From Lachnospiraceae bacterium (GTDB lineage Bacteria > Bacillota > Clostridia > Lachnospirales > Lachnospiraceae), in assembly GCA_029008875.1 (NCBI GenBank), contig JAQXJP010000009.1, positions 62,001 through 126,000 of the forward strand: 64,000 nt of DNA. Reading direction: 5' to 3'. Below the pieces are notes generated by a model. The model was not told where the DNA came from and did no database searches. It saw nothing but the letters and a program-made list of their open reading frames with translations. The position numbers and the translations under genes are program-made. Shown here in pieces: positions 6,000 to 30,575 of the stretch (the first letter of the stretch is position 1; each line of letters opens with the position of its first letter).

Positions 6000-8162
6000 A
6001 TGGGTAAGATTTTTAAAAATATGATTCCGTACTGGAAACAGGTGATTGTAATCATTCTGTTTTTAATTCTGCAGGTGAATTGCGATTTATCTCTTCCGCA
6101 GTACACCTCCAACATCATTGATGTGGGAATCACAAACCGGGGAATTGAACATATTCTGCCGGAGAAAATGACACAAAACGACTACGATACGGCGCAGTGG
6201 TTTATGACGGAGGAAGAAAAGGAGGAATGGGCTTCCTGCTATGGGCAGGAGGAGGAAGGAATTTTCTCCAGAGTCGCCCTGTCGGAGAAGAAATTGGACT
6301 CCCTGGATGAGCGCTTTCTTGTTCCCCTGGTGTTGAGCTATCAGGTGAACTCTGCCATGGAGCAGGCACAGAACGGGGAGAGCGGAGAATTTGCACAGAC
6401 GCAGGAGCTTGCCGCCTCCGGGGATCCCCTTGAGATGCGTCAGGCTCTCTCGGAGGTCATAGATTCCACGGGAACCAGCATGGTGCAATCCATGGGAGTT
6501 GCATTTGCGGCAAACTGTGACGAGAACGCGGGCGTGGATCTTGAATCCGTCCAGGTGAAGTACATGTGGAAAACGGGAGCCAAGATGCTGGGCGTGGCCC
6601 TGATTATGATGATTTGTGCAATCGTGGTCGGTTACATGGCATCCAAAGTGGGTGCGGCCATCGGCCGGGATTTGCGCAATAAGACGTTTCAGAATGTGGT
6701 AAGATACTCCAATGCGGAGATGGATCAGTTTTCCACCGCATCCCTGATTACCAGAAGCACCAACGATATTCAACAGGTGCAGATGGTGAGCACCATGTTT
6801 TTGCGCATGGTGATGATGGCGCCAATCATGGGTATCGGCGGAATCATCAAAGTGGCACAGACCGCCACGGGGATGGAGTGGATTATTGTTCTGGCGGTGG
6901 GCCTGTTGCTGACTTTGGTGGGAATACTGGTGGCGGTTTCCATGCCCAAATTTCAGAAAATGCAAAAACTTGTGGACCGGGTAAACCTGATTGCCAGGGA
7001 GATATTGACCGGACTTAGCGTCATTCGCGCCTTCGGAAGAGAAAAGCGGGAGGAGGAGCGCTTCGATGATGCCAATAAGGACCTGACGAAGACCATGCTC
7101 TTCACCAACCGCGCCATGACATTTATGATGCCGGGAATGTCCATGATTATGTATGGCATCACACTTCTCATTGTGTGGGTCGGAGCAAAACATATCGACA
7201 ACGGCACCATGCAGGTGGGAGCTATGACTGCGTTCATTACATACACCATGCTGATTGTCATGTCCTTTTTGATGCTTGCGGCAATGTCCATCATGTTGCC
7301 TCGGGCAGGTGTTGCGGCGGAGCGTATCGACGAGGTGATACGGACCAAGACCGGCATCGAGGAGGCAGAAAATCCGGTAAAGTTGGAGAAGCCTGAGGGC
7401 GTGGTGAGATTCGAGCATGTGGGGTTTATGTATCCCGGTGCGGAGGAAGAGGTGATTTCCGATATCGATTTCCAGGCAAAACCGGGCAAGACGACCGCCA
7501 TAATCGGAAGCACCGGTTGCGGAAAATCCACCCTTGTGAACCTGATTCCCAGGTTCTATGACGTGACAAGCGGTGCAATCACCATCGACGGGGTGAACAT
7601 CAAGGATATGTCTCTGTATGATTTAAGACAGATGGTGGGGTTTGTACCGCAAAAAGGGGTACTGTTCTCGGGAACCATCGCAAGCAATCTGCGGTTTGGC
7701 AATGCGGATGCCACCGACGAGGAGATTGCGGAGGCGGCGAGAATCGCCCAGGCCCAGGATTTTATTCTGGAGAAGGATCACGGGTATGACAGTCATATCG
7801 CCCAGGGCGGTTCCAATGTATCGGGAGGACAAAAGCAGCGTTTGGCAATTGCCCGCGCCATTGCCAAGAACCCGAAGATCTACGTGTTTGACGACAGTTT
7901 CTCCGCCCTTGACATGAAGACGGACGCAAAGCTTCGCAAGGATTTGGAGAGCGCCACCGGGGATGCGACGGTGATTGTGGTAGCGCAGCGCATCAGCACC
8001 ATTTTGCACGCAGATCAGATTCTGGTCTTGGACGAGGGCAAGATTGTGGGCCGTGGAACTCACGAGGAATTGCTCCGCAGCTGTGAGGTATATGAACAAA
8101 TCGCCAGGTCGCAATTATCCGCCAAGGAACTTGGGCTCGACGAAGAAAGGGAGGGCAGATAA
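6000..8162 (+). CDS. ABC exporter half-transporter with degenerate ATP site (subunit 1)
   Basis: A 720-residue fused membrane/ATPase half-transporter. TM1 (about 12–32) is followed by an unusually long, acidic extracytoplasmic insert (about 40–190) before TM2, then the remaining TM helices and a nucleotide-binding domain (about 465–705). Walker A is GSTGCGKST, the signature is NVSGGQKQR, but the residue after Walker B is Asp (VFDDSFSALD) instead of the catalytic Glu. In heterodimeric exporters such as TM287/288, BmrCD or LmrCD this marks the partner holding the degenerate site. The next gene starts at the base after its stop codon. Drug or lipid-like export is inferred from the family; the substrate is unknown. 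Confidence 0.9.
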   Translation: MGKIFKNMIPYWKQVIVIILFLILQVNCDLSLPQYTSNIIDVGITNRGIEHILPEKMTQNDYDTAQWFMTEEEKEEWASCYGQEEEGIFSRVALSEKKLDSLDERFLVPLVLSYQVNSAMEQAQNGESGEFAQTQELAASGDPLEMRQALSEVIDSTGTSMVQSMGVAFAANCDENAGVDLESVQVKYMWKTGAKMLGVALIMMICAIVVGYMASKVGAAIGRDLRNKTFQNVVRYSNAEMDQFSTASLITRSTNDIQQVQMVSTMFLRMVMMAPIMGIGGIIKVAQTATGMEWIIVLAVGLLLTLVGILVAVSMPKFQKMQKLVDRVNLIAREILTGLSVIRAFGREKREEERFDDANKDLTKTMLFTNRAMTFMMPGMSMIMYGITLLIVWVGAKHIDNGTMQVGAMTAFITYTMLIVMSFLMLAAMSIMLPRAGVAAERIDEVIRTKTGIEEAENPVKLEKPEGVVRFEHVGFMYPGAEEEVISDIDFQAKPGKTTAIIGSTGCGKSTLVNLIPRFYDVTSGAITIDGVNIKDMSLYDLRQMVGFVPQKGVLFSGTIASNLRFGNADATDEEIAEAARIAQAQDFILEKDHGYDSHIAQGGSNVSGGQKQRLAIARAIAKNPKIYVFDDSFSALDMKTDAKLRKDLESATGDATVIVVAQRISTILHADQILVLDEGKIVGRGTHEELLRSCEVYEQIARSQLSAKELGLDEEREGR

Positions 8163-9974
8163 ATGGCACCTAGAGGACATCATGGGAAACCTTCCGGGGA
8201 AAAAGCCCGGGATTTTAAGGGCTCCCTCGGAAAATTGATTCAGTATCTGGGAAAATATTGGATTGGAATTGTTTGTGTTATGATTTTTGCTGCGGTTGCC
8301 ACCCTCTTTTCCGTGGCGGGACCCAAGGTGATGGGAAAGGCTACCACCGCGCTGGCGGAAGGGCTTATGGCCAAAATTGCGGGGACAGGCGGAATTGATT
8401 TTTCCTATATCGCCAAGATATTGCTGTTCACCCTTGGACTGTATCTGATCAGCACCATCTTCAATTTTCTTCAGGGACTGATCATGACCAACATCACCCA
8501 GAAGACCTGTTATCGCTTGCGTGATGATATCAGCAAGAAGATTAACCGTATGCCCATGAAGTATTTTGAGAGCAGAACAAACGGGGAAGTGCTGTCAAGA
8601 ATCACCAACGATGTGGACACTCTGGGGCAGAGTTTAAACCAGAGTATCACACAGATTATTACGTCCATTGCGACCCTGATCGGAACACTTGTCATGATGC
8701 TGTCCATCTCGCCGCTGATGACGTTGATCTCCCTTGTGATTCTCCCAATTTCGGTGATTTTGATTTCTTTCGTCATTAAGCATTCCCAGAAGTATTTTCG
8801 CCAGCAGCAGGAATATCTGGGACACATCAACGGACAGGTGGAGGAGGTGTACGGAGGGCACCTGGTGGTGCAAGCCTTCAATAAGGAGGAGGAGACCATC
8901 GATAGCTTCTCCGAGACCAATGATACTCTTTACCAATCCGCGTGGAAATCACAGTTTTTGTCCGGATTGATGATGCCCATCATGCAGTTTGTCGGGAATC
9001 TCGGATACGCGGGAGTGGCGATCTCCGGTGGCATTCTGGCCATCCGAAATGTGATTACCATCGGTGATATACAGGCATTTATTCAGTATGTGAAAAACTT
9101 TACTCAGCCGATTCAGCAGATTGCCCAGGTGGCAAACCAGCTGCAGTCCATGGCGGCTGCCGCGGAGCGCGTATTTGAATTCCTGGGTGAAGAGGAGGAG
9201 GATGTGACAGTAGAAAACCCGGTGAAACCGGAGAAATTGCAGGGGGCGGTGGAATTCTCCCACGTGCATTTCGGATATCAGCCGGATCAGATTATCGTGA
9301 AGGATTTCTCCGCAAAGGTGAAGCCGGGGCAGAAGATTGCCATTGTAGGACCTACCGGAGCCGGCAAGACCACCATGGTGAAACTGCTCATGCGCTTCTA
9401 CGACGTCAACGATGGGGCAATTCTGGTGGACGGCCACGACGTGCGGGAATATAACCGACATGACTTGAGGGATGCCTTTGGAATGGTGCTTCAGGATACC
9501 TGGCTTTTCCAGGGAACTATCATGGAGAATATTCGTTACGGAAGGCTGGATGCCACGGATGAGGAGGTGATTGCCGCTGCAAAGGCAGCTCACGCTCACC
9601 ATTTTATCCAGACGCTTCCGGGAGGCTACCAGATGGAACTAAATGAGGATGCCAGCAACGTATCCCAGGGACAGAAGCAGCTGCTCACTATTGCGAGAGC
9701 GATTCTGGCGGACAATCCGATTTTGATCCTGGACGAGGCAACCTCATCCGTTGACACCAGAACCGAGGTGCGGATTCAGAAAGCGTTGGATAACCTGATG
9801 CGGGGAAGAACAAGCTTTATCATCGCCCATCGCCTGTCCACCATTCGGGATGCGGATTTGATTTTGGTGATGAAGGACGGCGACATCGTAGAGCAGGGTA
9901 GGCACGAGGAACTTTTGGCTGCAGATGGGTTCTATGCGGATTTGTATAATTCGCAGTTTGAGGAGGCTGTTTAA
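8163..9974 (+). CDS. ABC exporter half-transporter with catalytic Glu (subunit 2)
   Basis: A 603-residue ABC half-exporter partnering the preceding gene. After a basic leader it has six predicted TM helices and a nucleotide-binding domain from about residue 350. Walker A is GPTGAGKTT and Walker B ILILDEATSSVD has the catalytic Glu. The signature is the altered NVSQGQKQL rather than LSGGQ. The subunits are thus complementary: this one gives Walker A/B of the competent site and the upstream one gives the intact signature, the classic asymmetric heterodimer. Both genes lie between spoIVB and spo0A on the same strand. Confidence 0.92.
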   Translation: MAPRGHHGKPSGEKARDFKGSLGKLIQYLGKYWIGIVCVMIFAAVATLFSVAGPKVMGKATTALAEGLMAKIAGTGGIDFSYIAKILLFTLGLYLISTIFNFLQGLIMTNITQKTCYRLRDDISKKINRMPMKYFESRTNGEVLSRITNDVDTLGQSLNQSITQIITSIATLIGTLVMMLSISPLMTLISLVILPISVILISFVIKHSQKYFRQQQEYLGHINGQVEEVYGGHLVVQAFNKEEETIDSFSETNDTLYQSAWKSQFLSGLMMPIMQFVGNLGYAGVAISGGILAIRNVITIGDIQAFIQYVKNFTQPIQQIAQVANQLQSMAAAAERVFEFLGEEEEDVTVENPVKPEKLQGAVEFSHVHFGYQPDQIIVKDFSAKVKPGQKIAIVGPTGAGKTTMVKLLMRFYDVNDGAILVDGHDVREYNRHDLRDAFGMVLQDTWLFQGTIMENIRYGRLDATDEEVIAAAKAAHAHHFIQTLPGGYQMELNEDASNVSQGQKQLLTIARAILADNPILILDEATSSVDTRTEVRIQKALDNLMRGRTSFIIAHRLSTIRDADLILVMKDGDIVEQGRHEELLAADGFYADLYNSQFEEAV

Positions 9975-20971: not shown

Positions 20972-22063
20972 ATGAGTGAAAAGTTGAAGGTTGGTATCCT
21001 TGGCGGTACCGGAATGGTTGGACAGAGATTTATTTCTTTATTGGAGAATCACCCCTGGTTTGAGGTGACTACCATCGCAGCCAGCCCGAGAAGCGCCGGT
21101 AAGACATATGAGGAAGCGGTGGGAGATCGTTGGAAAATGGATACTCCGATGCCGGAGGCTGTCAAGAATATTGTGGTTATGAACGTCAATGAGGTTGAGA
21201 AGGTTGCAGCCCAGGTGGATTTTGTATTCTCAGCTGTAGACATGACCAAGGAAGAAATCAAGAAGATTGAGGAAGACTACGCGAAGACCGAGACTCCGGT
21301 TGTGTCCAACAACAGTGCACACCGCTGGACACCGGATGTCCCCATGGTTGTGCCGGAGATTAACCCGGAGCACATGGAGGTCATCAAGTATCAGAAGGAG
21401 CGCCTGGGCACCACCAGAGGTTTTGTTGCGGTTAAGCCGAACTGCTCCATCCAGTCCTACGCCCCGGTTCTCACCGCGTGGAAAGAGTTTGAGCCCTATG
21501 AGGTGGTTGTGACAACCTACCAGGCAATCTCCGGAGCGGGCAAGACCTTCAAGGAGTGGCCGGAGATGGTGGGAAATATCATCCCGTTCATCGGCGGAGA
21601 AGAAGAAAAGTCCGAGAAGGAGCCACTTCGCGTCTGGGGATATGTGGATGACGAGAAGAAGGAGATTGTTCCTGCAACTTCACCGGTGATCACCGCACAG
21701 TGTATCCGTGTTCCGGTATTGAACGGACATACCGCCGCCGTATTTGTGAAGTTTAAGAAGCAGCCCACCAAGCAGCAGCTCATTGACGCTTTATTGGCAT
21801 ACAAGGGCGCTCCTCAGGAACTGAATCTTCCCAGCGCGCCGAAGCAGTTCATCACCTACCATGAGGAGGAGAATCGCCCTCAGGTAACGCTGGATGTGAA
21901 TTACGAGAACGGAATGGGAATCAACGTGGGCCGTCTGAGAGAGGATACCGTGTATGATTGGAAGTTTGTGGGCCTTTCCCACAATACCGTCCGCGGTGCT
22001 GCAGGAGGTGCAGTTCTCTGCGCCGAGCTTTTGAAGGCCCAGGGATACATCACCAAGAAGTAA
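20972..22063 (+). CDS. asd: Aspartate-semialdehyde dehydrogenase
   Basis: Asd reduces aspartyl phosphate to aspartate semialdehyde, the branch point to lysine, diaminopimelate, threonine and methionine. The start at 20972 follows GAGGAGAAAAAAGA and opens the Rossmann motif GILGGTGMVGQRF. The protein has 363 residues, with the catalytic Cys in KPNCSIQ and the conserved SGAGKTF region. The sequence style (VVPEINPEHM, NGHTAAV) is that of the archaeal/fungal-type Asd lineage rather than the E. coli type. A terminator follows the stop. Confidence 0.94.
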   Translation: MSEKLKVGILGGTGMVGQRFISLLENHPWFEVTTIAASPRSAGKTYEEAVGDRWKMDTPMPEAVKNIVVMNVNEVEKVAAQVDFVFSAVDMTKEEIKKIEEDYAKTETPVVSNNSAHRWTPDVPMVVPEINPEHMEVIKYQKERLGTTRGFVAVKPNCSIQSYAPVLTAWKEFEPYEVVVTTYQAISGAGKTFKEWPEMVGNIIPFIGGEEEKSEKEPLRVWGYVDDEKKEIVPATSPVITAQCIRVPVLNGHTAAVFVKFKKQPTKQQLIDALLAYKGAPQELNLPSAPKQFITYHEEENRPQVTLDVNYENGMGINVGRLREDTVYDWKFVGLSHNTVRGAAGGAVLCAELLKAQGYITKK

Positions 22064-22101
22064 TCGGTGTAAAATTGAACAAAAACAGGTCGGATTTTTC
22101 T

Positions 22102-22127
22102 ATCCCGGGAGAGACATCTCCCGGGAT
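22102..22127 (+). terminator. Terminator after asd
   Basis: A perfect stem ATCCCGGGAGA / TCTCCCGGGAT with a short loop is followed by ATTTTAT. Confidence 0.85.
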
Positions 22128-22135
22128 ATTTTATA

Positions 22136-22164: not shown

Positions 22165-22215
22165 TGTCCTCGTATTCGGATTTTTATCCGGAAGAAAGAC
22201 GGAGAAGATTTTTAC

Positions 22216-23910
22216 ATGAAGACGAAGATGAAATATATTCTTGCAGCGCTGTGGGTTATGGGAGTTCTGGTCCTGGGAACCTTCGGCTATATGCAGGAGT
22301 TTGATGGATATTTTTGGAAAAGCTTATACTGTGCGCTGATGCTGTTTGTACTCAGTCCCGGCGTAGAAGTGCCGGAGATGAATGTGTATATTATCACGGC
22401 AGCCTTTATGGCCAGCCTGACTCTGGCGACTTTCCTGATTACGTTGGTACGCCTTATGAGAGAGCGCATGCACCTGCTACGTTGGATGTTCCAACCGGCG
22501 GACGAGAAGGTAGCAATCCACACCAACTGTGTGGAGGAACTGGTTCCCCTTCTCAAGGATATGGAGAAGCAGGGCAAGGAGTATATCATCAGCGATTTGC
22601 CGGGGAGCTTTTCCGGGAGTCGCCAGCTTCTCTATTTCTCGGAGTACGAGGAAATGTTTGAGTATATCACAAAGCACCGGGAGGAACTGTCTCCGGACAA
22701 GAACCGGGACCTGTATGTCTACTGTGAGGAGCGGGACAGGGATTCTTTTACCGCAAAGGGGCTTCACAATATCTGTCTGTCCCAGAATGCTGCCCGGATC
22801 TACTGGCAGGAGCATATGGTCACCCGCAAGGATGCTCAGATTGTCATGATCGGTTTCGGAAACTACGGGGAGGCGCTCCTGGAACAGGCGCTTTTGACCA
22901 ATGTGATCAGCACCTGCAGCGAGATTATGTACCACATCTTCCCCTTGGGGGAGGAAGAGGCCGGCAGGATGGATGACTTTTTGGCAATGCATCCCCAGTT
23001 ACTAAAGATTGTGACCGTAAACCGAAGGGAGGCCGGAAGGGACTCTCTCTGGGTACATAAAGAGAGTTTTTACAAAAACCGGGAGATATTGGAGCAGAGC
23101 CGGATTATTCTGGCAGCGGACAAGGATGAGACCAACATCGCCATCGTGGGCAATCTGCAGAAGCTTTTTGCACTTTCTGTGGAGGGAAGGGATTCCATCG
23201 ACATCCGTCTGGAGAGCGAATCCACCTTTGTTACCCTTTTGGCGGACTCCAAGAACTGCCCGGGAGCAATTCGTGCCAATTCCGCAAAGGAGCAGAATTC
23301 CCCCACTATTCAACTGTGGGGAAATAAGGAAAAGTGCATGACCTACGACATTATCTTCAGTGAGAAGCTGTTGCGCAATGCCAAGATTCGAGATGCCTAT
23401 TATCGCAGCGGAAGCGGTTTGAATCCGGAACTGTTGGAGCGATATCATCTGACACCGGAGCAGGTGGATGCTATGAGTGTATTTGAGATAGCGGATTCCA
23501 AGTGGTATCAGGAGATATGGAATTCCATGAGTCTCCATATGCAGGGGACGAACCTTGCCCTTGCGGACCATACCCACTACAAATTATGGCTGATGGATCC
23601 CTATGCCAATCTGAAAAATCGGGATATCGCAGAGGTGTGGGACAGACTTCCGGAGGAGCGCAAGGATGAACTGGGAGAGATTGAACATATCCGCTGGATG
23701 CGCTTCCACTACATGAACAACTGGAGTTACGGACCCGAGAAGGACTTTGATCATCGCACCCATCCCCTGTTGCTGCCCTATGATGAGATCAAGAAGCTGT
23801 ATCAGGATCCGGACGATGAGGAGAGGGATGCGGAATTGAAGAAAGCGTTGCAGGTTATTCTGGACAATGACCGTGATTCCTTCCGCAATCTGGGAGCTTA
23901 TCTGGATTAG
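22216..23910 (+). CDS. Channel-like 2TM / Rossmann / RyR-domain protein
   Basis: A 564-residue membrane protein. Two TM helices (about 7–24 and 57–79) flank a pore-helix-like stretch (FWKSLYCALMLFVLS, about 33–47) in the layout of a 2TM ion channel. The usual K+ filter TVGYG is absent. A Rossmann fold follows, with VMIGFGNYGEALLEQAL at about 210–226, as in TrkA-N/RCK nucleotide-binding domains. The C-terminal ~45 residues (from about 487: IEHIRWMRFHYMNNWSYGP, then THPLLLPYDE) match the ryanodine-receptor RyR repeat. I recall actinobacterial proteins of the same design. A nucleotide- or NAD-derived-ligand-gated conductance is inference. It heads an apparent operon with the next two genes. Confidence 0.75.
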   Translation: MKTKMKYILAALWVMGVLVLGTFGYMQEFDGYFWKSLYCALMLFVLSPGVEVPEMNVYIITAAFMASLTLATFLITLVRLMRERMHLLRWMFQPADEKVAIHTNCVEELVPLLKDMEKQGKEYIISDLPGSFSGSRQLLYFSEYEEMFEYITKHREELSPDKNRDLYVYCEERDRDSFTAKGLHNICLSQNAARIYWQEHMVTRKDAQIVMIGFGNYGEALLEQALLTNVISTCSEIMYHIFPLGEEEAGRMDDFLAMHPQLLKIVTVNRREAGRDSLWVHKESFYKNREILEQSRIILAADKDETNIAIVGNLQKLFALSVEGRDSIDIRLESESTFVTLLADSKNCPGAIRANSAKEQNSPTIQLWGNKEKCMTYDIIFSEKLLRNAKIRDAYYRSGSGLNPELLERYHLTPEQVDAMSVFEIADSKWYQEIWNSMSLHMQGTNLALADHTHYKLWLMDPYANLKNRDIAEVWDRLPEERKDELGEIEHIRWMRFHYMNNWSYGPEKDFDHRTHPLLLPYDEIKKLYQDPDDEERDAELKKALQVILDNDRDSFRNLGAYLD

Positions 23911-24006
23911 AGGGAATAAATCGCTGATTGGTCTGGAAACAAGCGTGTAAGAAAACAAATTATTCTTTATTAAAACAAGAATTAACTTATATAGAGGAAG
24001 AAGATT

Positions 24007-25368
24007 ATGAATGCAAAAGCAACAGATGTAAGAAAACTGGAAGAGTATTATCACAGGTCCGGCAACCAGCTGGTGGTGTTGTACGGGCAGAGGGAAAATC
24101 AGGCGAGATCATTGATTCGTGCCTTTTCGGAGGGGAAGAAGACTTTCTATTATCAGTGCCGCCAAGCTTCTGCGGAGCTTCAGAACAAGATGTTCGGACA
24201 GGAGATTGCAAGGCAGTTTGAGGCGAAATTGCAGAAATTTACATACGACGAATACTTTAACCGAATCAAGACCGGGGATCCATCCAAATTGCTGGTGGTG
24301 ATTGACGAGGCACAGTATGTACTGAAGAAGGATCCGGAATTCGTGAAAAGTCTGGTGAAGCTCCGCAACAAACGCCTGTACCCGGGACCGGTTATGGTGC
24401 TTCTGGTTTGTTCCTCTGTTGTATTTGCGGAGCAGGATCTGGATGGACTCTTCGTGGAGGACGCAAAATACATCGACGGGAGAGTGAAGCTGGAGAATCT
24501 GAACTTTTTGGATGTGGTCCGCTTTTTCCCGGAGTATTCCGTTGCGGACAGTATCAAGGTGTACGGCGTGGTGGGCGGAGTGCCGGACTATCTGGAACAC
24601 TGGGACAGAAAGGCGGATTTTAAGACCAATATCTGCCGTCTGGTACTGAATGAGAACGGATACCTCTACAACGCGGCGGAGCGCAAGATTTCATCGGAAT
24701 TGCGGGAGCTTTCCGTTTACAACACCATTCTGGCCACTATTGCCTCCGGAAGCAACAAGCTGAACGACCTGTTCCATGAGACCGGATATTCCAGGGCCAA
24801 GATCAGTGTGTACATGAAGAATCTTTCCCAGTTCAACATCATAGAGAAGCTGGTTTCCTTTGAGACCGGCGGATGGGAAAACGCCAAAAAAGGAGTGTAC
24901 CAGATTCAGGATACATTTGTTAATTTTTGGTTTAAGTTTGTATATCCACACCTTTCCGACTTATATTTGATGTCGGAGGAGGAGTTTTATGATACCTATA
25001 TCGCAGAGGAACTGGATGGGTATCTGCAGAGATACTTCCGCAATGTATGTATGGAGTATCTGATGATTCTCAATCAGATGAATCGCCTTCCAATCCAGAT
25101 TCACAAGATGGGAACCTGGGTGGGAAAGACCGGCAATATCGATATTATCGCCCAGAGTGCGGACAGACAGAACATTATCGGTTTCTGTAACTGGGATCAG
25201 CCCCAGATGACCATGGCAATGTGCGAGGATATGGCGACGGCCATGGAGAAAGCGAAAATTGCCTCCGAGCATTACTATCTGTTTTCCGCCACGGATTTTG
25301 AACCGGCCCTCAAAGCGTATGTGCAGAGAGATCCGAGCTTTATTCTGATTGATATGAAGGAACTGTAA
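24007..25368 (+). CDS. DUF234-type AAA ATPase with destroyed Walker A
   Basis: A 453-residue protein of the archaeal-type ATPase/DUF234 class (ATPase domain, winged helix, C-terminal nuclease-like domain). The P-loop position reads LVVLYGQRENQARSLI (about 22–37): the family form has GRRRxGKT/S, so the essential Gly-Lys-Thr/Ser is missing. Walker B LLVVIDEAQYVL (about 95–106) is kept. A helix-turn-helix region is at about 240–290, and the C-terminal part ends FILIDMKEL. ATP hydrolysis is therefore doubtful. It sits 96 bases after the RyR protein gene and ends directly against the topB ATG. Confidence 0.8.
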   Translation: MNAKATDVRKLEEYYHRSGNQLVVLYGQRENQARSLIRAFSEGKKTFYYQCRQASAELQNKMFGQEIARQFEAKLQKFTYDEYFNRIKTGDPSKLLVVIDEAQYVLKKDPEFVKSLVKLRNKRLYPGPVMVLLVCSSVVFAEQDLDGLFVEDAKYIDGRVKLENLNFLDVVRFFPEYSVADSIKVYGVVGGVPDYLEHWDRKADFKTNICRLVLNENGYLYNAAERKISSELRELSVYNTILATIASGSNKLNDLFHETGYSRAKISVYMKNLSQFNIIEKLVSFETGGWENAKKGVYQIQDTFVNFWFKFVYPHLSDLYLMSEEEFYDTYIAEELDGYLQRYFRNVCMEYLMILNQMNRLPIQIHKMGTWVGKTGNIDIIAQSADRQNIIGFCNWDQPQMTMAMCEDMATAMEKAKIASEHYYLFSATDFEPALKAYVQRDPSFILIDMKEL

Positions 25369-28300
25369 ATGGGAAAATCGTTAATCATCACAGAGAAACC
25401 GTCCGTTGCCCGGGAATTTGCCAATGTGTTGCATGTGAACGGCAGACAAAACGGATATATCGAGGATCAGAACTATGTTATCACCTGGTGCGTGGGTCAT
25501 CTGGTGGAGCTGGTCTATCCGGAATCCTATGACATCAAATACAAAAAGTGGCGACTGGAGGATCTCCCTTTTTTGCCCAAGGAATACAAGTATGACGTGA
25601 AGAAGGAGACCAAATCCCAGTATGATATCGTCCACGGCATGTTGCAGCGTGAGGATATCGACCGGGTCTACTGGGCAGGCGATGCCGGAAAAGAGGGACA
25701 GACCATCGAGGAGAATATCCGAAACTTTGGCGGAGTGCGCCGGGGAATGGAGGAGCTTCGGGTGTGGATTGACTCTCAGACGGAGGAGGAGATTCTGCGG
25801 GGAATCCGCGAGGCAAAACCCATGTCGGAATACGCCAATCTGGGGCTGTCCGGCATCATGCGCACCATCGAGGATTATGCCATGGGAATCAATTTTTCCC
25901 GTGTTATGTCCATAAAATACGGCAATTTGCTGAATGATGCGGCAGGTACCAAATCCTACACCGCCATCGCAGTGGGGCGTGTCATGACCTGCGTGCTTGG
26001 AATGGTGGTGATTCGGGAACGGGAGATTCGCAATTTCTCCGAGACCCCGTTTTATCGTATTATTGGGCGTTTTTCCCACGCCGGAATTGAGGCGGAATGG
26101 AAGGCGGTGGAGGGCTCCAAATTTTTTGAATCCCCGCTCTTGTATAAGGAAAACGGCTTTAAAAAGGAAGAGGATGCAAAGGCTCTGATGGATGAGCTGG
26201 CGGGAAAACCGGCAAAGGTGATCTCCATCGATAAGAGCACCACAAGGAAGAGGGCACCTCTGCTCTTTAACCTGGCGGAACTTCAGGCGGAATGCTCCAA
26301 GAAGTTTAAGATCAGCCCGGAGGAAACCCTGCAGATTGCCCAGGATTTGTATGAGAAAAAACTCACCACCTACCCGAGAACGGACGCCCGTGTATTAAGT
26401 AGCGCAATCGCCAAGGAAATCTCCAAAAATATCGGAAAACTCCGGAATTATGAGCCCACCCATGCCTTTGTGGAACACATCATGGAGCGGCGGCTCTATG
26501 AAAATATCGCAAAGACCCAGTACACGGATGACAGCAAGGTCACCGACCACTATGCCATCATCCCAACCGGACAATTGAGTGAGCTAAATTCTCTGAATTC
26601 CTTGCAAAAAGCGGTGTTTGAACTGATTGTGCGCCGGTTTTTAAGCATTTTTTACCCGGCGGCGGAATATGAAAATGTAAAGCTGGTTGTGGGTGTGGAG
26701 AAGGAACAGTTTTTCTCCTCCGCAAAGGTGCTGAAAAGTCAGGGCTATCTGGAGGTGGCCACACCGCCCAAGAAAAAGTCCTTCGAGGAGGAAAATGCAA
26801 GAATTCTCGGCGCAAATGCCGGGGGTGATGACAGCGATTCTTCGGATGGCTCCGGCGTTAACGGAGAAAACGGCGGAGAGGACGCGGTGATAGTCAATCC
26901 GAAGGTCCTCATGGAGCTTGTGGATACGCTGCACAGCGGGGATGAAATCTCCGTGGGCGGATACGAGATCAAGTACGGAAAAACCTCGCCGCCGAAGCGC
27001 TACACCTCCGGCTCCATGATTCTGGCCATGGAGAATGCCGGACAGCTCATCGAGGATGAGGAACTGCGGGAACAGATCAAGGGCTCCGGAATCGGAACCT
27101 CCGCTACCAGAGCCGGAATCATCGACAAGCTGGTGAAGAACGGATACATCAACCTCAATAAGAAGACCCAGATTCTCTCGCCGGAGCGGCTGGGGGAGAT
27201 GATTTATGAGGTGGTGAATATGACGGTGCCGGCACTTTTGAACCCCAAGATGACCGCATCCTGGGAGAAAGGACTGGAGGGCATCACCCAGGGGACGGTG
27301 GATTTCTGGGATTACCGCACCAAACTGGAGAATTACATCCGCACGGAAACCCTCAAGATGGTGGAACAAAATCTCCGGGCAACTTTGGCGGAGCGTATCA
27401 GCGGGTTTGCCGGCAAGGATGCCAGGGGCGCGGGGGCAAGGCGCAAAATCGGAATTGCCTGCCCGGTGTGCGGCGGAGAACTGGTGACCACACCTTTCGG
27501 ATACGGATGCTCCAATTATAAGAGCGATAAAACCGGGTGTAATTTTAATTTGGGTGAAATCTGTGGTGTCTCCCTGACGGAGGAACAGGTCAAGCAGCTG
27601 TTCACGGAGGGACACACGGATACCATCCGGGGCTTTAAGAGCAAAGCCGGCAAGAAATTTGATGCCTGCCTGGCTTTTTCCAAGGATGAGGATGGAAAGC
27701 CCTCCATCAACTTTGATTTTTCCAATGTGGAAGCCAAGGTGGTGGGGGATGTGAAGTGCCCGGCCTGCGGGGGCAACATGGTGGTGACCCCTTACGGGTA
27801 TGCCTGCGAGAACCGACCAAGGCGCAGTGCGCAGAATTCCGGCGCCAAGGCAGAAGCGACGGATTCCGGCATGCAGACGGGGGAAGGATCCGGTGCGCAG
27901 ACTGGAGAAGTGTCCGGCACGCAGACGCAGGAAGAATTCGGTGCGCAGTCAGGAGAAGTGCCCGGCACGCAGACGGAGGAAGGATCCGGTGCGCAGACAG
28001 GAGAAGTGTCCGGCACGCAGACGGAGGAAGGATCCGGGACGCAGTCAGGAGAAGTGTCCGGCACGCAAGAGGGAGCAGCATCGCAGGAGTGCTACTTCGC
28101 GGTGGGGGAAATTGCCAAGGTAAAGTTGACGCAGGCGCAGTTAAAGCAACTGCTTACCAACCATGCGACGGATATTATTCGAGGTTTTAAGAGCAAGGCC
28201 GGCAAGAAATTTGACGCCAAACTGAAGCTGGTTCAGGAAGAGGAACGGTGGAATGTGGTCTTTGACTTCGAGGATGTGACACCGGAGATTGTGAAGGATG

Positions 28301-29319
28301 TGGTGTGCCCCGTGTGCGGCGGAGAAATCCGCAAGACCTCATTCGGCTTCGGTTGCTCCAACTTCAAGGCGGGGCAGGAGGACAGCTGTGCTTTTTCCAT
28401 CGGAAAGATTGCGGGAAAGGCCCTGACTGTGGCAAATGTGACGCAGCTTCTCACGGAAGGACGCACGGAAACCATCCGAGGATTCAAGAGCAAGGCCGGC
28501 AAGAAATTTGATGCCAGGCTGGCATTGGACCGGGATGGGGATGGCAAATGCAAGGGAATCAAGTTCGATTTCGCGGACGTGGAAGCCAAGACTGTCAAGG
28601 ATGCGGTTTGCCCTATTTGCAAGGGAAAAATCGCAGTTACGCCCTACGGATACAGTTGTGTGAACAACAAGCGGGATGAGGAGAACAGCTGCAGCTTTTT
28701 CATTGGAAAAATTGCAGGGGTTATGTTGAAGGAGAGTCAGGTGCAGGAACTCTTGCTGCGCAAGAAGATCGGACCTATCAGCGGCTTTATCGCAAAGACG
28801 GGCATGATGTTTGACGCTTCCCTGAAACTGACCGAGGAAGGCCGGGTGGAATTTGATTTCCCGGAGAAACCAAAGCCGGTGGAGTCGGATGTGGAATGCC
28901 CGAAGTGCCACAAGAAAATGATGAAGGCGCAGTGGAACTACGAATGCGAATGCGGATTTAAAGTGTCCCACACCGTGGCCAAGGTGCCGCTGTCCGAGGA
29001 AGTCATCAAGGAGCTTCTGACCACGGGCAAGACGAGAAATAAGGTTCTTGGATTTACCAGCAAAGCGGGGAATGCGTTCGATGCCTGCTTGAAGTTCGAG
29101 GATGACAGGATCCAATTTGATTTTGACAATCCCGGGGAAAGCGCGGCCAGATTAGACGATTCTGTGACGGGAGAGGGGAAATCCTCGGCGGGAGCAGGAA
29201 CGTCCGCGATGAGGCGGGGGAAGTCCTCAGACGCAGGAGTCATAGACTTCGGTGCTATCGACGAAGCGCAGATGCAGGAGATACTGGGAGACAATCCTTC
29301 TTCGGAGAGCGAAGTGTAG
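25369..29319 (+). CDS. topB: DNA topoisomerase III with extended C-terminal repeats
   Basis: A type IA topoisomerase of 1316 residues, about twice the bare enzyme. The Toprim domain begins SLIITEKPSVAREFANVL, and the active-site Tyr lies in LTTYPRTDARVLSS. From about residue 695 there are five copies of a C-terminal module: a four-Cys zinc finger (CPVCGGE…GYGCSN…C) followed by a Toprim_Crpt-like repeat with FKSKAGKKFDA. Module 2 is split between its third and fourth Cys by a Gly/Thr/Gln-rich tandem repeat. The tail is low-complexity and acidic. The ATG directly follows the stop of the ATPase gene, with AAGGA nearby, so it is coupled to it. TopB decatenates single-strand-linked DNA. Confidence 0.93.
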   Translation: MGKSLIITEKPSVAREFANVLHVNGRQNGYIEDQNYVITWCVGHLVELVYPESYDIKYKKWRLEDLPFLPKEYKYDVKKETKSQYDIVHGMLQREDIDRVYWAGDAGKEGQTIEENIRNFGGVRRGMEELRVWIDSQTEEEILRGIREAKPMSEYANLGLSGIMRTIEDYAMGINFSRVMSIKYGNLLNDAAGTKSYTAIAVGRVMTCVLGMVVIREREIRNFSETPFYRIIGRFSHAGIEAEWKAVEGSKFFESPLLYKENGFKKEEDAKALMDELAGKPAKVISIDKSTTRKRAPLLFNLAELQAECSKKFKISPEETLQIAQDLYEKKLTTYPRTDARVLSSAIAKEISKNIGKLRNYEPTHAFVEHIMERRLYENIAKTQYTDDSKVTDHYAIIPTGQLSELNSLNSLQKAVFELIVRRFLSIFYPAAEYENVKLVVGVEKEQFFSSAKVLKSQGYLEVATPPKKKSFEEENARILGANAGGDDSDSSDGSGVNGENGGEDAVIVNPKVLMELVDTLHSGDEISVGGYEIKYGKTSPPKRYTSGSMILAMENAGQLIEDEELREQIKGSGIGTSATRAGIIDKLVKNGYINLNKKTQILSPERLGEMIYEVVNMTVPALLNPKMTASWEKGLEGITQGTVDFWDYRTKLENYIRTETLKMVEQNLRATLAERISGFAGKDARGAGARRKIGIACPVCGGELVTTPFGYGCSNYKSDKTGCNFNLGEICGVSLTEEQVKQLFTEGHTDTIRGFKSKAGKKFDACLAFSKDEDGKPSINFDFSNVEAKVVGDVKCPACGGNMVVTPYGYACENRPRRSAQNSGAKAEATDSGMQTGEGSGAQTGEVSGTQTQEEFGAQSGEVPGTQTEEGSGAQTGEVSGTQTEEGSGTQSGEVSGTQEGAASQECYFAVGEIAKVKLTQAQLKQLLTNHATDIIRGFKSKAGKKFDAKLKLVQEEERWNVVFDFEDVTPEIVKDVVCPVCGGEIRKTSFGFGCSNFKAGQEDSCAFSIGKIAGKALTVANVTQLLTEGRTETIRGFKSKAGKKFDARLALDRDGDGKCKGIKFDFADVEAKTVKDAVCPICKGKIAVTPYGYSCVNNKRDEENSCSFFIGKIAGVMLKESQVQELLLRKKIGPISGFIAKTGMMFDASLKLTEEGRVEFDFPEKPKPVESDVECPKCHKKMMKAQWNYECECGFKVSHTVAKVPLSEEVIKELLTTGKTRNKVLGFTSKAGNAFDACLKFEDDRIQFDFDNPGESAARLDDSVTGEGKSSAGAGTSAMRRGKSSDAGVIDFGAIDEAQMQEILGDNPSSESEV
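27885..28072 (+). repeat. In-frame 24-bp tandem repeat inside topB
   Basis: About eight 24-bp units encode octapeptides alternating between GAQTGEVS-like and GTQTEEGS-like forms. The array lies between the third and fourth Cys of zinc module 2. Near-identical 48-bp doublets suggest recent copy-number change. Confidence 0.85.
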
Positions 29320-29412
29320 GAAGGAAACGCCGGTGAGGTGTGAAGCCGGTGGAGAGTGAATCTGGCGGAGAGTATAGCTGAAAATTTTAGGCACGGAGGG
29401 CAAAAAAATAGG

Positions 29413-29640
29413 TTTTGCGCCCAAAGATGTGTCCCTAAATTGCAAAAGATGATAAAATTTGGGCGCAGAAGGTAAGAAAATGGCTTTTGCGCCCAAAGAT
29501 GTGTCCCTAAATTGCAGAAAATGACGAAATTTGGGCATAGAAGGTAAAAAAAGGGCTTTTGCGCCCAAAGATGTGTCCCCAAATCGTAAAATAAGCAAAA
29601 TTTGGGTTCAGAAAACAGAAAAAGATTTGTTTTGCCCAAT
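29413..29640. repeat. 72-bp tandem repeat, each unit a hairpin
   Basis: Units begin at 29413, 29485 and 29557 with TTTTGCGCCCAAAGATGTGT, exactly 72 bases apart, and a decayed fourth begins near 29629. In unit 1, TGCGCCCAAA pairs perfectly with TTTGGGCGCA about 30 bases later; in units 2 and 3 the 3' arm has drifted. The region fills most of the 366-base gap between topB and the next gene. The minus strand is open through all units (24 residues per unit), but no start or coding style supports a gene. Confidence 0.85.
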
Positions 29641-29685
29641 GGGATAAATATGCGAACCACTAGCTAAATGAAAAGAGGAGAAAAT

Positions 29686-30363
29686 ATGGAAACAGCAAGA
29701 ATTAAGAATTTATACACCCTGGAGGAAACTATCGCGGGGGAGTATCTGGCGCAGTTCACCTATCCATGGGAAGCGCTGAAAGGAATCAGCGATTTTATCC
29801 GGAAAATCGGTCCCACCTTGGATTCGGAAAAGTATGAGCAGCGAGGGGAGGACATCTGGGTGGCAAAAAGTGCAACGGTTTTTCCAAGTGCCTATCTGCA
29901 TGGACCGTTGATTATTGATGAGGAGGCGGAGATTCGCCATTGTGCTTTTATCCGTGGTTCCGCAATCGTTGGAAAAGGCTCCGTGGTGGGAAATTCCACG
30001 GAATTGAAGAATGTCATCATTTTTAATTCCGTTCAGGTTCCTCACTACAATTATGTGGGTGATTCCATTCTTGGATACAAATCCCACATGGGAGCAGGCT
30101 CCATCACCTCTAACGTAAAGTCCGACAAGGAACTTGTGGTGGTCAAGGACGTGTACGACACCAAGGAGGAAATTCCCACCGGGCTCAAAAAGTTCGGGGC
30201 AATGCTTGGGGATTATGTGGAAGTGGGGTGCAATTCGGTTCTCAATCCGGGGACAGTGGTGGGACCCCACAGCAATATTTATCCCACATCCTGCGTGCGC
30301 GGCGTGATTCCGGCGAATTCCATCTACAAGGATAAAGAGCACGTGGTTCGCAAGAACGTATAA
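29686..30363 (+). CDS. Left-handed beta-helix (hexapeptide) acyl/nucleotidyltransferase-like protein
   Basis: The ATG at 29686 follows AGAGGAGAAA; an earlier in-frame ATG at 29668 lies upstream of that site. The ~225-residue protein has an alpha-helical N-terminus and, from about residue 60, a run of hexapeptide turns (WVAKSATVFPSAYLHGPLII, then IVGKGSVVGNSTELKN and VLNPGTVVGPHSNIYP). This is the fold of the C-terminal half of GlmU and related sugar-nucleotide acyltransferases. There is no pyrophosphorylase domain. Substrate unknown. Its final codons are partly duplicated twice just after the stop. Confidence 0.8.
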   Translation: METARIKNLYTLEETIAGEYLAQFTYPWEALKGISDFIRKIGPTLDSEKYEQRGEDIWVAKSATVFPSAYLHGPLIIDEEAEIRHCAFIRGSAIVGKGSVVGNSTELKNVIIFNSVQVPHYNYVGDSILGYKSHMGAGSITSNVKSDKELVVVKDVYDTKEEIPTGLKKFGAMLGDYVEVGCNSVLNPGTVVGPHSNIYPTSCVRGVIPANSIYKDKEHVVRKNV

Positions 30364-30440
30364 GGATTGACAAGAAGCCGTTGTCCGCAAGAACGGATAA
30401 AGACTGACAAGGAGCATGTTGTCCGCAAGAACGGATAAAG
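30342..30440 (+). repeat. 37–38-bp direct repeats of the preceding gene's 3' end
   Basis: The last codons plus stop (CGCAAGAACGTATAA and neighbours) recur at about 30387 and 30425 with 37- and 38-base spacing and a few changes. The result is two extra pseudo-ends after the true stop. Confidence 0.75.
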
Positions 30441-30575
30441 GATTGATTTTAGCGCAAAAATTGTTGATTTTTCTACTTGATGATTGGGAAAAAATATGAG
30501 AGAATGACCACAGTATGTTAAACTTCTAACAAGAGTATTAACACATATAAGTTTTTAGACGAAAGGAGTCTTACA

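Follow-up and report, generated by a model that had tools for sequence, protein, structure and literature searches.

A TIR-less RyR-domain membrane protein and a topB-linked ATPase with a degenerate P-loop, apparently independent neighbours in a Lachnospiraceae genome

The window considered here is a stretch of 64,000 nucleotides from a Lachnospiraceae bacterium (contig JAQXJP010000009.1, positions 62,001 to 126,000), and the subject is a pair of adjacent genes within it (positions 22216 to 25368), upstream of topB, the gene of DNA topoisomerase III. The first encodes a membrane protein that ends in an RyR domain (the RyR protein), the second an ATPase of the DUF234 type with a degenerate P-loop. 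A first-pass annotation had joined the two into a ligand-gated membrane device tied to topB, an idea that the synteny survey described below does not support. The RyR gene occupies this place in the present genome only, and the ATPase and topB form an old pair; thus, the adjacency looks accidental and the locus holds two separate findings. The explanation that best accounts for the whole, held with middling confidence, is that a TIR-less, nucleotide-gated RyR membrane protein lies beside an independent topB-linked ATPase.

In the RyR protein, a membrane region is followed by a Rossmann domain carrying a GFGNYG motif and by a C-terminal RyR domain (Table 1). The profile PF02026 recognizes this last domain at 25.9 bits in a protein scan and at 28.7 bits in a six-frame genome scan, for a cut-off of 27.4. 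Moreover, phmmer searches against solved structures retrieve, with E values down to 2.2e-11, RyR1/2/3 together with RyR proteins from bacteria and phages. Hydropathy peaks are found at residues 8-26, 37-55, and 59-77, and a profile-profile alignment places residues 37-55 on the pore helix and TVGYGD motif of K+-channel relatives, without the filter itself. This agrees with the proposal of a two-transmembrane (2TM) pore-like region devoid of a K+ filter. The profile Ion_trans_2 (PF07885) gives no match up to E 1 in the window protein and none in the relatives L139, L161, and L260; it matches two tested relatives that have the filter (41.9 and 52.8 bits). Of the two profile searches suggested at the outset, the one for RyR gives scores on either side of its cut-off and the one for the channel gives no match.

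The RyR domain can be compared with that of RyDEP, a phage RyR-domain protein which, according to a 2026 preprint, binds and cleaves 2'/3' cyclic ADP-ribose (cADPR) through residues H75, W78, H100, and D117 (PDB 35TM; PMC13232231). The first three correspond to H491, W494, and H516 of the window protein, and this H, W, H set is present in 38, 38, and 37 of 39 homologs, respectively. The counterpart of D117 depends on the alignment, being D538 in the pairwise one and D533 in that of the family. Judged by these alignments, the window RyR domain is predicted to retain the ligand residues H, W, H, and D of the RyDEP/R12 pocket. However, RyDEP as described in that preprint is a free-standing phage cADPR glycosidase or sponge that removes the signal, whereas the window domain belongs to a host gene and forms one protein with a Rossmann domain and a membrane region. 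Because of this fusion, it would read the signal, unlike RyDEP.

Relatives were sought in 397 genomes of the family (E <= 1e-8), 35 of which have a match, own genome included. Neighbourhoods of 37 loci were obtained, 33 via this search and 4 via a genus search; among the 34 other matching genomes, G397 and initially G212 had no neighbourhood (G212 was added later), and the fragment in G001 was left out. In the tree of these 37 proteins and the window's (the second RyR paralog of L160 being left out), 18 of 38 have the TVGYGD filter (L140-L150, L152-L155, L158, L164, and L167) and 20 have none, and a single branch with 100/100 support splits the two classes. The two classes are related to each other over most of their length (410 profile columns aligned, hhalign probability 100). 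The filter class, with a 2TM K+ channel, Rossmann, and RyR arrangement, keeps TVGYGD and two tested members match Ion_trans_2, while the window protein has neither property. The window protein is sister to L139 (98/95).

The classes differ in their neighbours. Pfam families were sought in proteins of at least 100 amino acids encoded within three genes of the RyR gene. In the first no-filter sample, 11 of 97 such proteins have TIR_2, one each in 11 of 19 loci (L151, L157, L160, L161, L165, L166, L168, L169, L170, L172, and L175). The filter loci give 95 neighbour proteins with one TIR, in L167, that is in 1/18 loci; this count was read from the best 25 of 132 families, ordered by members then E-value, where TIR_2 at 7.2e-13 with two members would be listed, so that no more than one can occur in the filter class, namely that of L167. 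In addition, a profile search across 398 genomes of the phylum (E <= 1e-25) yielded a single member from outside the family, with a TIR gene 67 bp away on the same strand. Combined, TIR genes accompany 12/26 no-filter loci, the window's own excluded, versus 1/18 filter loci (Fisher p 0.006; p 0.001 for the first sample only, 11/19 versus 1/18), and these p values are descriptive, since some loci are kin (L157, L161, and L168 form one tight clade) and the link was noticed before counting. Ten of the 12 TIR genes share the orientation of the RyR gene, and six of these ten are its immediate neighbours, at 16-141 bp (L151, L157, L161, L165, L166, and L168). In several cases, the TIR protein also has TPR, LRR, MORN, or AAA/STAND parts. 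Two cases were left out of the 12: a TIR match of 23.2 bits (cut-off 28) just beyond three genes in L174, and a DUF4062 neighbour (44.7 bits) in L156, DUF4062 being presented as a TIR-like NADase domain in PMC13174449. No TIR was found within three genes in the no-filter loci L139, L159, L162, L163, L171, and L173.

By analogy with Thoeris, the best reading is that the RyR family would be a membrane effector with the RyR domain as receptor for a TIR-made ADP-ribose signal. In PMC11204291, a TM-macro ThsA (TM, transmembrane) stands beside a TIR protein, ThsB, and nucleotide binding leads to oligomers of higher order, in which the membrane parts would be brought together. The likeness lies in a membrane segment joined to a likely sensor of ADP-ribose type, with a TIR nearby in the no-filter relatives counted above. 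The differences are the RyR domain in place of macro, the extra Rossmann domain, a membrane part related to 2TM K+ channels and the lack of a TIR beside the window copy. The C-terminal RyR domain would bind an ADP-ribose-type nucleotide in its H/W/H/D pocket; binding would alter the Rossmann/TM assembly, and the membrane part would then cluster or open and so perturb the membrane. The neighbouring TIR protein would supply the signal in about half of the filterless relatives, making a Thoeris-like abortive-infection pair, and the window copy would respond to a TIR encoded at another place in the genome or to some other source. Since no TIR adjoins the window copy, we infer its role, be it the ligand, the membrane effect, the part in defence or the source of the signal. 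More generally, it can tentatively be proposed that bacterial RyR domains are receptors and not only phage sponges, within a modular system of a TIR signal maker (TPR, LRR, MORN, or STAND) and a 2TM-Rossmann-RyR effector, derived from RyR-gated K+ channels or evolved alongside them; the TIR-less window copy would act in trans.

Several observations weigh against this proposal. Neither a TIR nor a DUF4062 gene adjoins the window RyR gene; the five TIR_2 matches of its own genome are all on other contigs, and a search of that genome for DUF4062 gave no match. L139, the nearest relative, has no adjoining TIR either and no branch of the tree is longer than that of the window protein (1.74), which makes function by homology weak. 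In the follow-up no-filter loci obtained by the family profile search, TIR was found in 0/6, three of them being cut by a contig end (L266 ends at the contig edge before its RyR domain), a count read from the best 25 of 58 families and from the N-termini. Conversely, L167 (6949-11126) pairs a filter-bearing RyR protein with a TIR protein that matches ThsB_TIR, encoded 2 bp downstream; TIR linkage is therefore not unique to filter loss, and it is possible that an RyR-gated K+ channel serves there as TIR effector. To this must be added the descriptive standing of the p values, and the predicted structure of the RyR protein alone, which had a mean confidence score (pLDDT) of 37.9 and was discarded.

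These points leave room for a somewhat unlikely alternative, in which the RyR protein has a housekeeping role as a nucleotide-gated regulator in the membrane, for osmotic or ion homeostasis, as the K+-channel sister class may be; TIR linkage would then be a later recruitment in the relatives and silent on the window copy. In its favour, the sister class has many metabolic neighbours besides its single TIR, 14 of the 26 other no-filter loci lack a counted TIR at that distance of up to three genes, and the window gene lies in a metabolic/topB block with a third-position GC content (GC3) of 0.65, versus 0.62-0.66 in its neighbours. However, the K+ filter is gone and the family is patchy, being met at any place in only 6 of 60 genus genomes, own included.

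Some candidates were rejected and some neighbouring features are recorded here. The RyR protein is not a defence protein known to PADLOC-DB 2.0.0 or to NCBIfam, whose models give no match up to E 1 (for PADLOC, none up to E 0.001 with L161, L165, and L260). A plasmid or phage origin of the gene was likewise set aside, as tblastn returned two plasmid records, both aligned solely at the RyR end (identities of 27.7 and 41.8%), and none from phages. In viral contigs, one search gave no match to the RyR protein and another gave nine pattern matches, none of them confirmed. The genome of the window also encodes a stand-alone 103-amino-acid RyR protein with a full-length PF02026 match of 116 bits (L213, contig C42, 15560-15871), and a 146-amino-acid TIR protein is encoded about 11 kb from it. 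In three genus genomes, TIR and RyR genes occur together with a gene for 662-664 amino acids that no Pfam family matches (L172, 2098-4092; L174, 11595-13583; L175, 1876-3867), and its L174 copy weakly resembles the window RyR protein (E 9e-5). In L139, the gene at 7244-8482, which adjoins the RyR gene, weakly matches a Card1-like nuclease, at 17.6 bits for a cut-off of 26.4. Proteins joining TM and RyR parts as effectors of TIR signals were absent among the literature matches listed, and RyR fusions in bacteria may already figure in older domain surveys.

The second gene bears out the description it was first given. DUF234 (PF03008) is matched at 57.1 bits for a cut-off of 22.5, and ATPase_2 (PF01637) at 30 bits, below its cut-off of 33.2. 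The Walker A consensus GxxxxGK[ST] is absent from the window protein, where the corresponding stretch reads GQRENQARS, with Ala for Lys and Arg for Ser/Thr (Leu and Gln in the sister L012), and Walker B is kept as VVIDEAQ. It had been asked whether close relatives keep GKT, which would imply a local mutation. GKT or GKS occurs in 0 of 83 distinct orthologs, the window's included, and is seen in more distant lineages; the degenerate P-loop being common to orthologs, a local or assembly mutation is ruled out. Among 134 homologs, 31 have Lys and Ser/Thr (L179, where the preceding Gly is absent, included), 75 Lys alone, and 28 have lost Lys (including L060, whose N-terminus looks damaged), with 10 changes on a quick tree of 116 of these rows, 18 near copies being removed. 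The set leaves out exact duplicates, proteins of fewer than 400 amino acids and the 11 homologs without a topB match (L204, L227, L228, L229, L235, L238, L245, L247, L249, L251, and L254); the rows L012-L109 were kept regardless of that match, some ending at a contig or stretch edge and L108 having none though its contig continues. As read from these alignments, the topB-linked group has lost its ATP-loop residues repeatedly.

Structure prediction, which failed for the RyR protein, did give a fold for the ATPase. Residues 1-311 of the model resemble the AAA and winged-helix parts of archaeal Walker-type ATPases (PDB 2qen and 2fna) and, more distantly, ORC/Cdc6. The protein is best read as an inherited partner of topB with both predicted folds kept. 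The winged helix is its best conserved part; for this reason, the ATPase probably remains a DNA-binding platform or partner for TopB, and we infer both the DNA binding and the contact. That it still binds ATP via the residues left to it (Walker B and, in most orthologs, Lys), as a slow or switch-like ATPase, is unlikely. The Lys without Ser/Thr of 75 homologs, and the Walker B acidic residues, of which Asp persists in 72 and Glu in 75 of 85 degenerate rows, would agree with it, but not the Ala and Arg of the window protein, nor the Leu and Gln of L012.

DUF234 carries a nuclease E-x-K pattern. At this site (residues ~370-400), the topB-linked group mostly has hydrophobic-Cys-Asn, as do many GKT-bearing orthologs; topB-unlinked homologs partly have C-K there, so that loss of the nuclease pattern is suggestive only. 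This site, the P-loop loss and the topB linkage set the window ATPase apart from the archaeal Walker-type ATPases. The protein also matches the model of the PADLOC candidate PDC-S27 (E 1.8e-24), yet it is kept beside topB in most genus genomes, as would not be expected of an accessory gene for defence. Among the literature matches listed, none dealt with a topB-linked ATPase in Lachnospiraceae.

The separation of the two genes rests on synteny. An ATPase ortholog is present in 52 of 62 genus genomes, own included (E <= 6.2e-138), and ATPase and topB are both matched in 95 of 110 loci, with a gap of 0-277 bp (0 in the window, where topB starts on the base following the ATPase stop codon). The tight link to topB noted in the first-pass annotation is borne out, and the order asd-ATPase-topB is found in Agathobacter, Roseburia, Eubacterium, and other Lachnospiraceae records, other genera of the family included. 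The space from asd to the ATPase is variable, from 3 to 6395 bp in the 84 loci having both. By eye, this slot holds transporter-like and regulator-like genes elsewhere; in outgroup lineages it holds a gene for about 573 amino acids (with a GGDEF-like motif, by eye, in L223), and in L041, on the contig of the nearest ortholog of the window ATPase, a different membrane protein. Among the loci compared, the RyR gene is in the slot in the window's genome only, and no RyR protein match was found in the covered stretches of the 98 other ATPase ortholog loci (L012-L109, 29 and 69 from two retrievals, partly on the same contigs, some stretches ending inside or before asd). RyR relatives exist at other places in 5 of 59 other genus genomes, at 22-39% identity, and the RyR and ATPase families have no profile similarity (hhalign probability 0.1). 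The pairing of the RyR protein with the ATPase thus falls, and a conserved RyR-ATPase-topB unit is rejected, the survey upholding only the linkage of the ATPase to topB.

The single occurrence in the slot and the long branch could also indicate that the RyR gene arrived recently and serves no function in this genome; this is improbable, given an intact frame of 564 codons, a codon-position GC like that of the neighbours and conserved pocket residues. That the RyR protein, the ATPase and TopB form one device would fit their common strand, the 96 bp between the first two genes, the lack of a terminator found between them and the zero gap to topB, but the 98 loci and the slot filled by other genes elsewhere, as in L041, make it highly improbable.

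On the + strand, the gene order is argH (named from sequence, without a family search), asd, RyR gene, ATPase, and topB. Since no terminator was detected downstream of the RyR gene ahead of the ATPase, read-through is possible. The promoter they were said to share is unsupported: promoter-like sites number 8, versus 4.3 (standard deviation 2.1) in shuffles, and the best one (22211-22239) overlaps the RyR start codon. Three tandem repeats were seen downstream: at 27865-28075 within topB (48-bp unit, 4.4 copies, 88% matches), encoding a linker of the GTQTEEGSGAQTGEV type; at 29382-29613 between topB and the next gene (72-bp unit, 3.2 copies); and at 30338-30446, at the end of the open reading frame 29668-30363 (37-bp unit, 2.9 copies).

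Table 1. Features of the locus, in positions of the window.
Feature	Positions	Strand	Remarks
asd (aspartate-semialdehyde dehydrogenase type)	20972..22063	+	upstream edge of conserved block
Terminator-like hairpin 3' of asd	22101..22128	+	
RyR gene, 2TM-Rossmann-RyR protein, filterless class	22216..23910	+	564 amino acids
Membrane region	22237..22446	+	hydropathy peaks 8-26 and 59-77, pore-helix-like 37-55 between; no TVGYGD
GFGNYG of Rossmann domain, residues 213-218	22852..22869	+	
RyR domain, residues 483-537	23662..23826	+	PF02026; RyR structures including RyDEP 35TM
Putative ligand-pocket residues H491, W494, H516	23686..23763	+	match RyDEP H75, W78, H100
topB-linked AAA-winged helix-turn-helix-DUF234 protein, degenerate P-loop	24007..25368	+	453 amino acids
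Degenerate Walker A GQRENQARS, residues 27-35	24085..24111	+	
Walker B VVIDEAQ, kept	24295..24315	+	
Winged-helix region, residues 231-312	24697..24942	+	most conserved part of ATPase
topB, DNA topoisomerase III	25369..29319	+	five Toprim_Crpt stretches

In the topB-linked protein, nature provides a series of ATP-loop losses in a gene held under constraint and in fixed synteny; with it, one can ask how an ORC-like AAA-winged-helix protein serves topoisomerase III when no ATP is involved. As for the RyR family, if the RyR domain is a receptor, a further class of membrane effectors for TIR-made nucleotides would be added, and binding of cADPR-type ligands by RyR-type domains would become testable on small bacterial proteins. 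The debated link between cADPR and RyR in animals would then gain a bacterial counterpart, in which an RyR domain gates a membrane protein in response to a cADPR-like immune signal.

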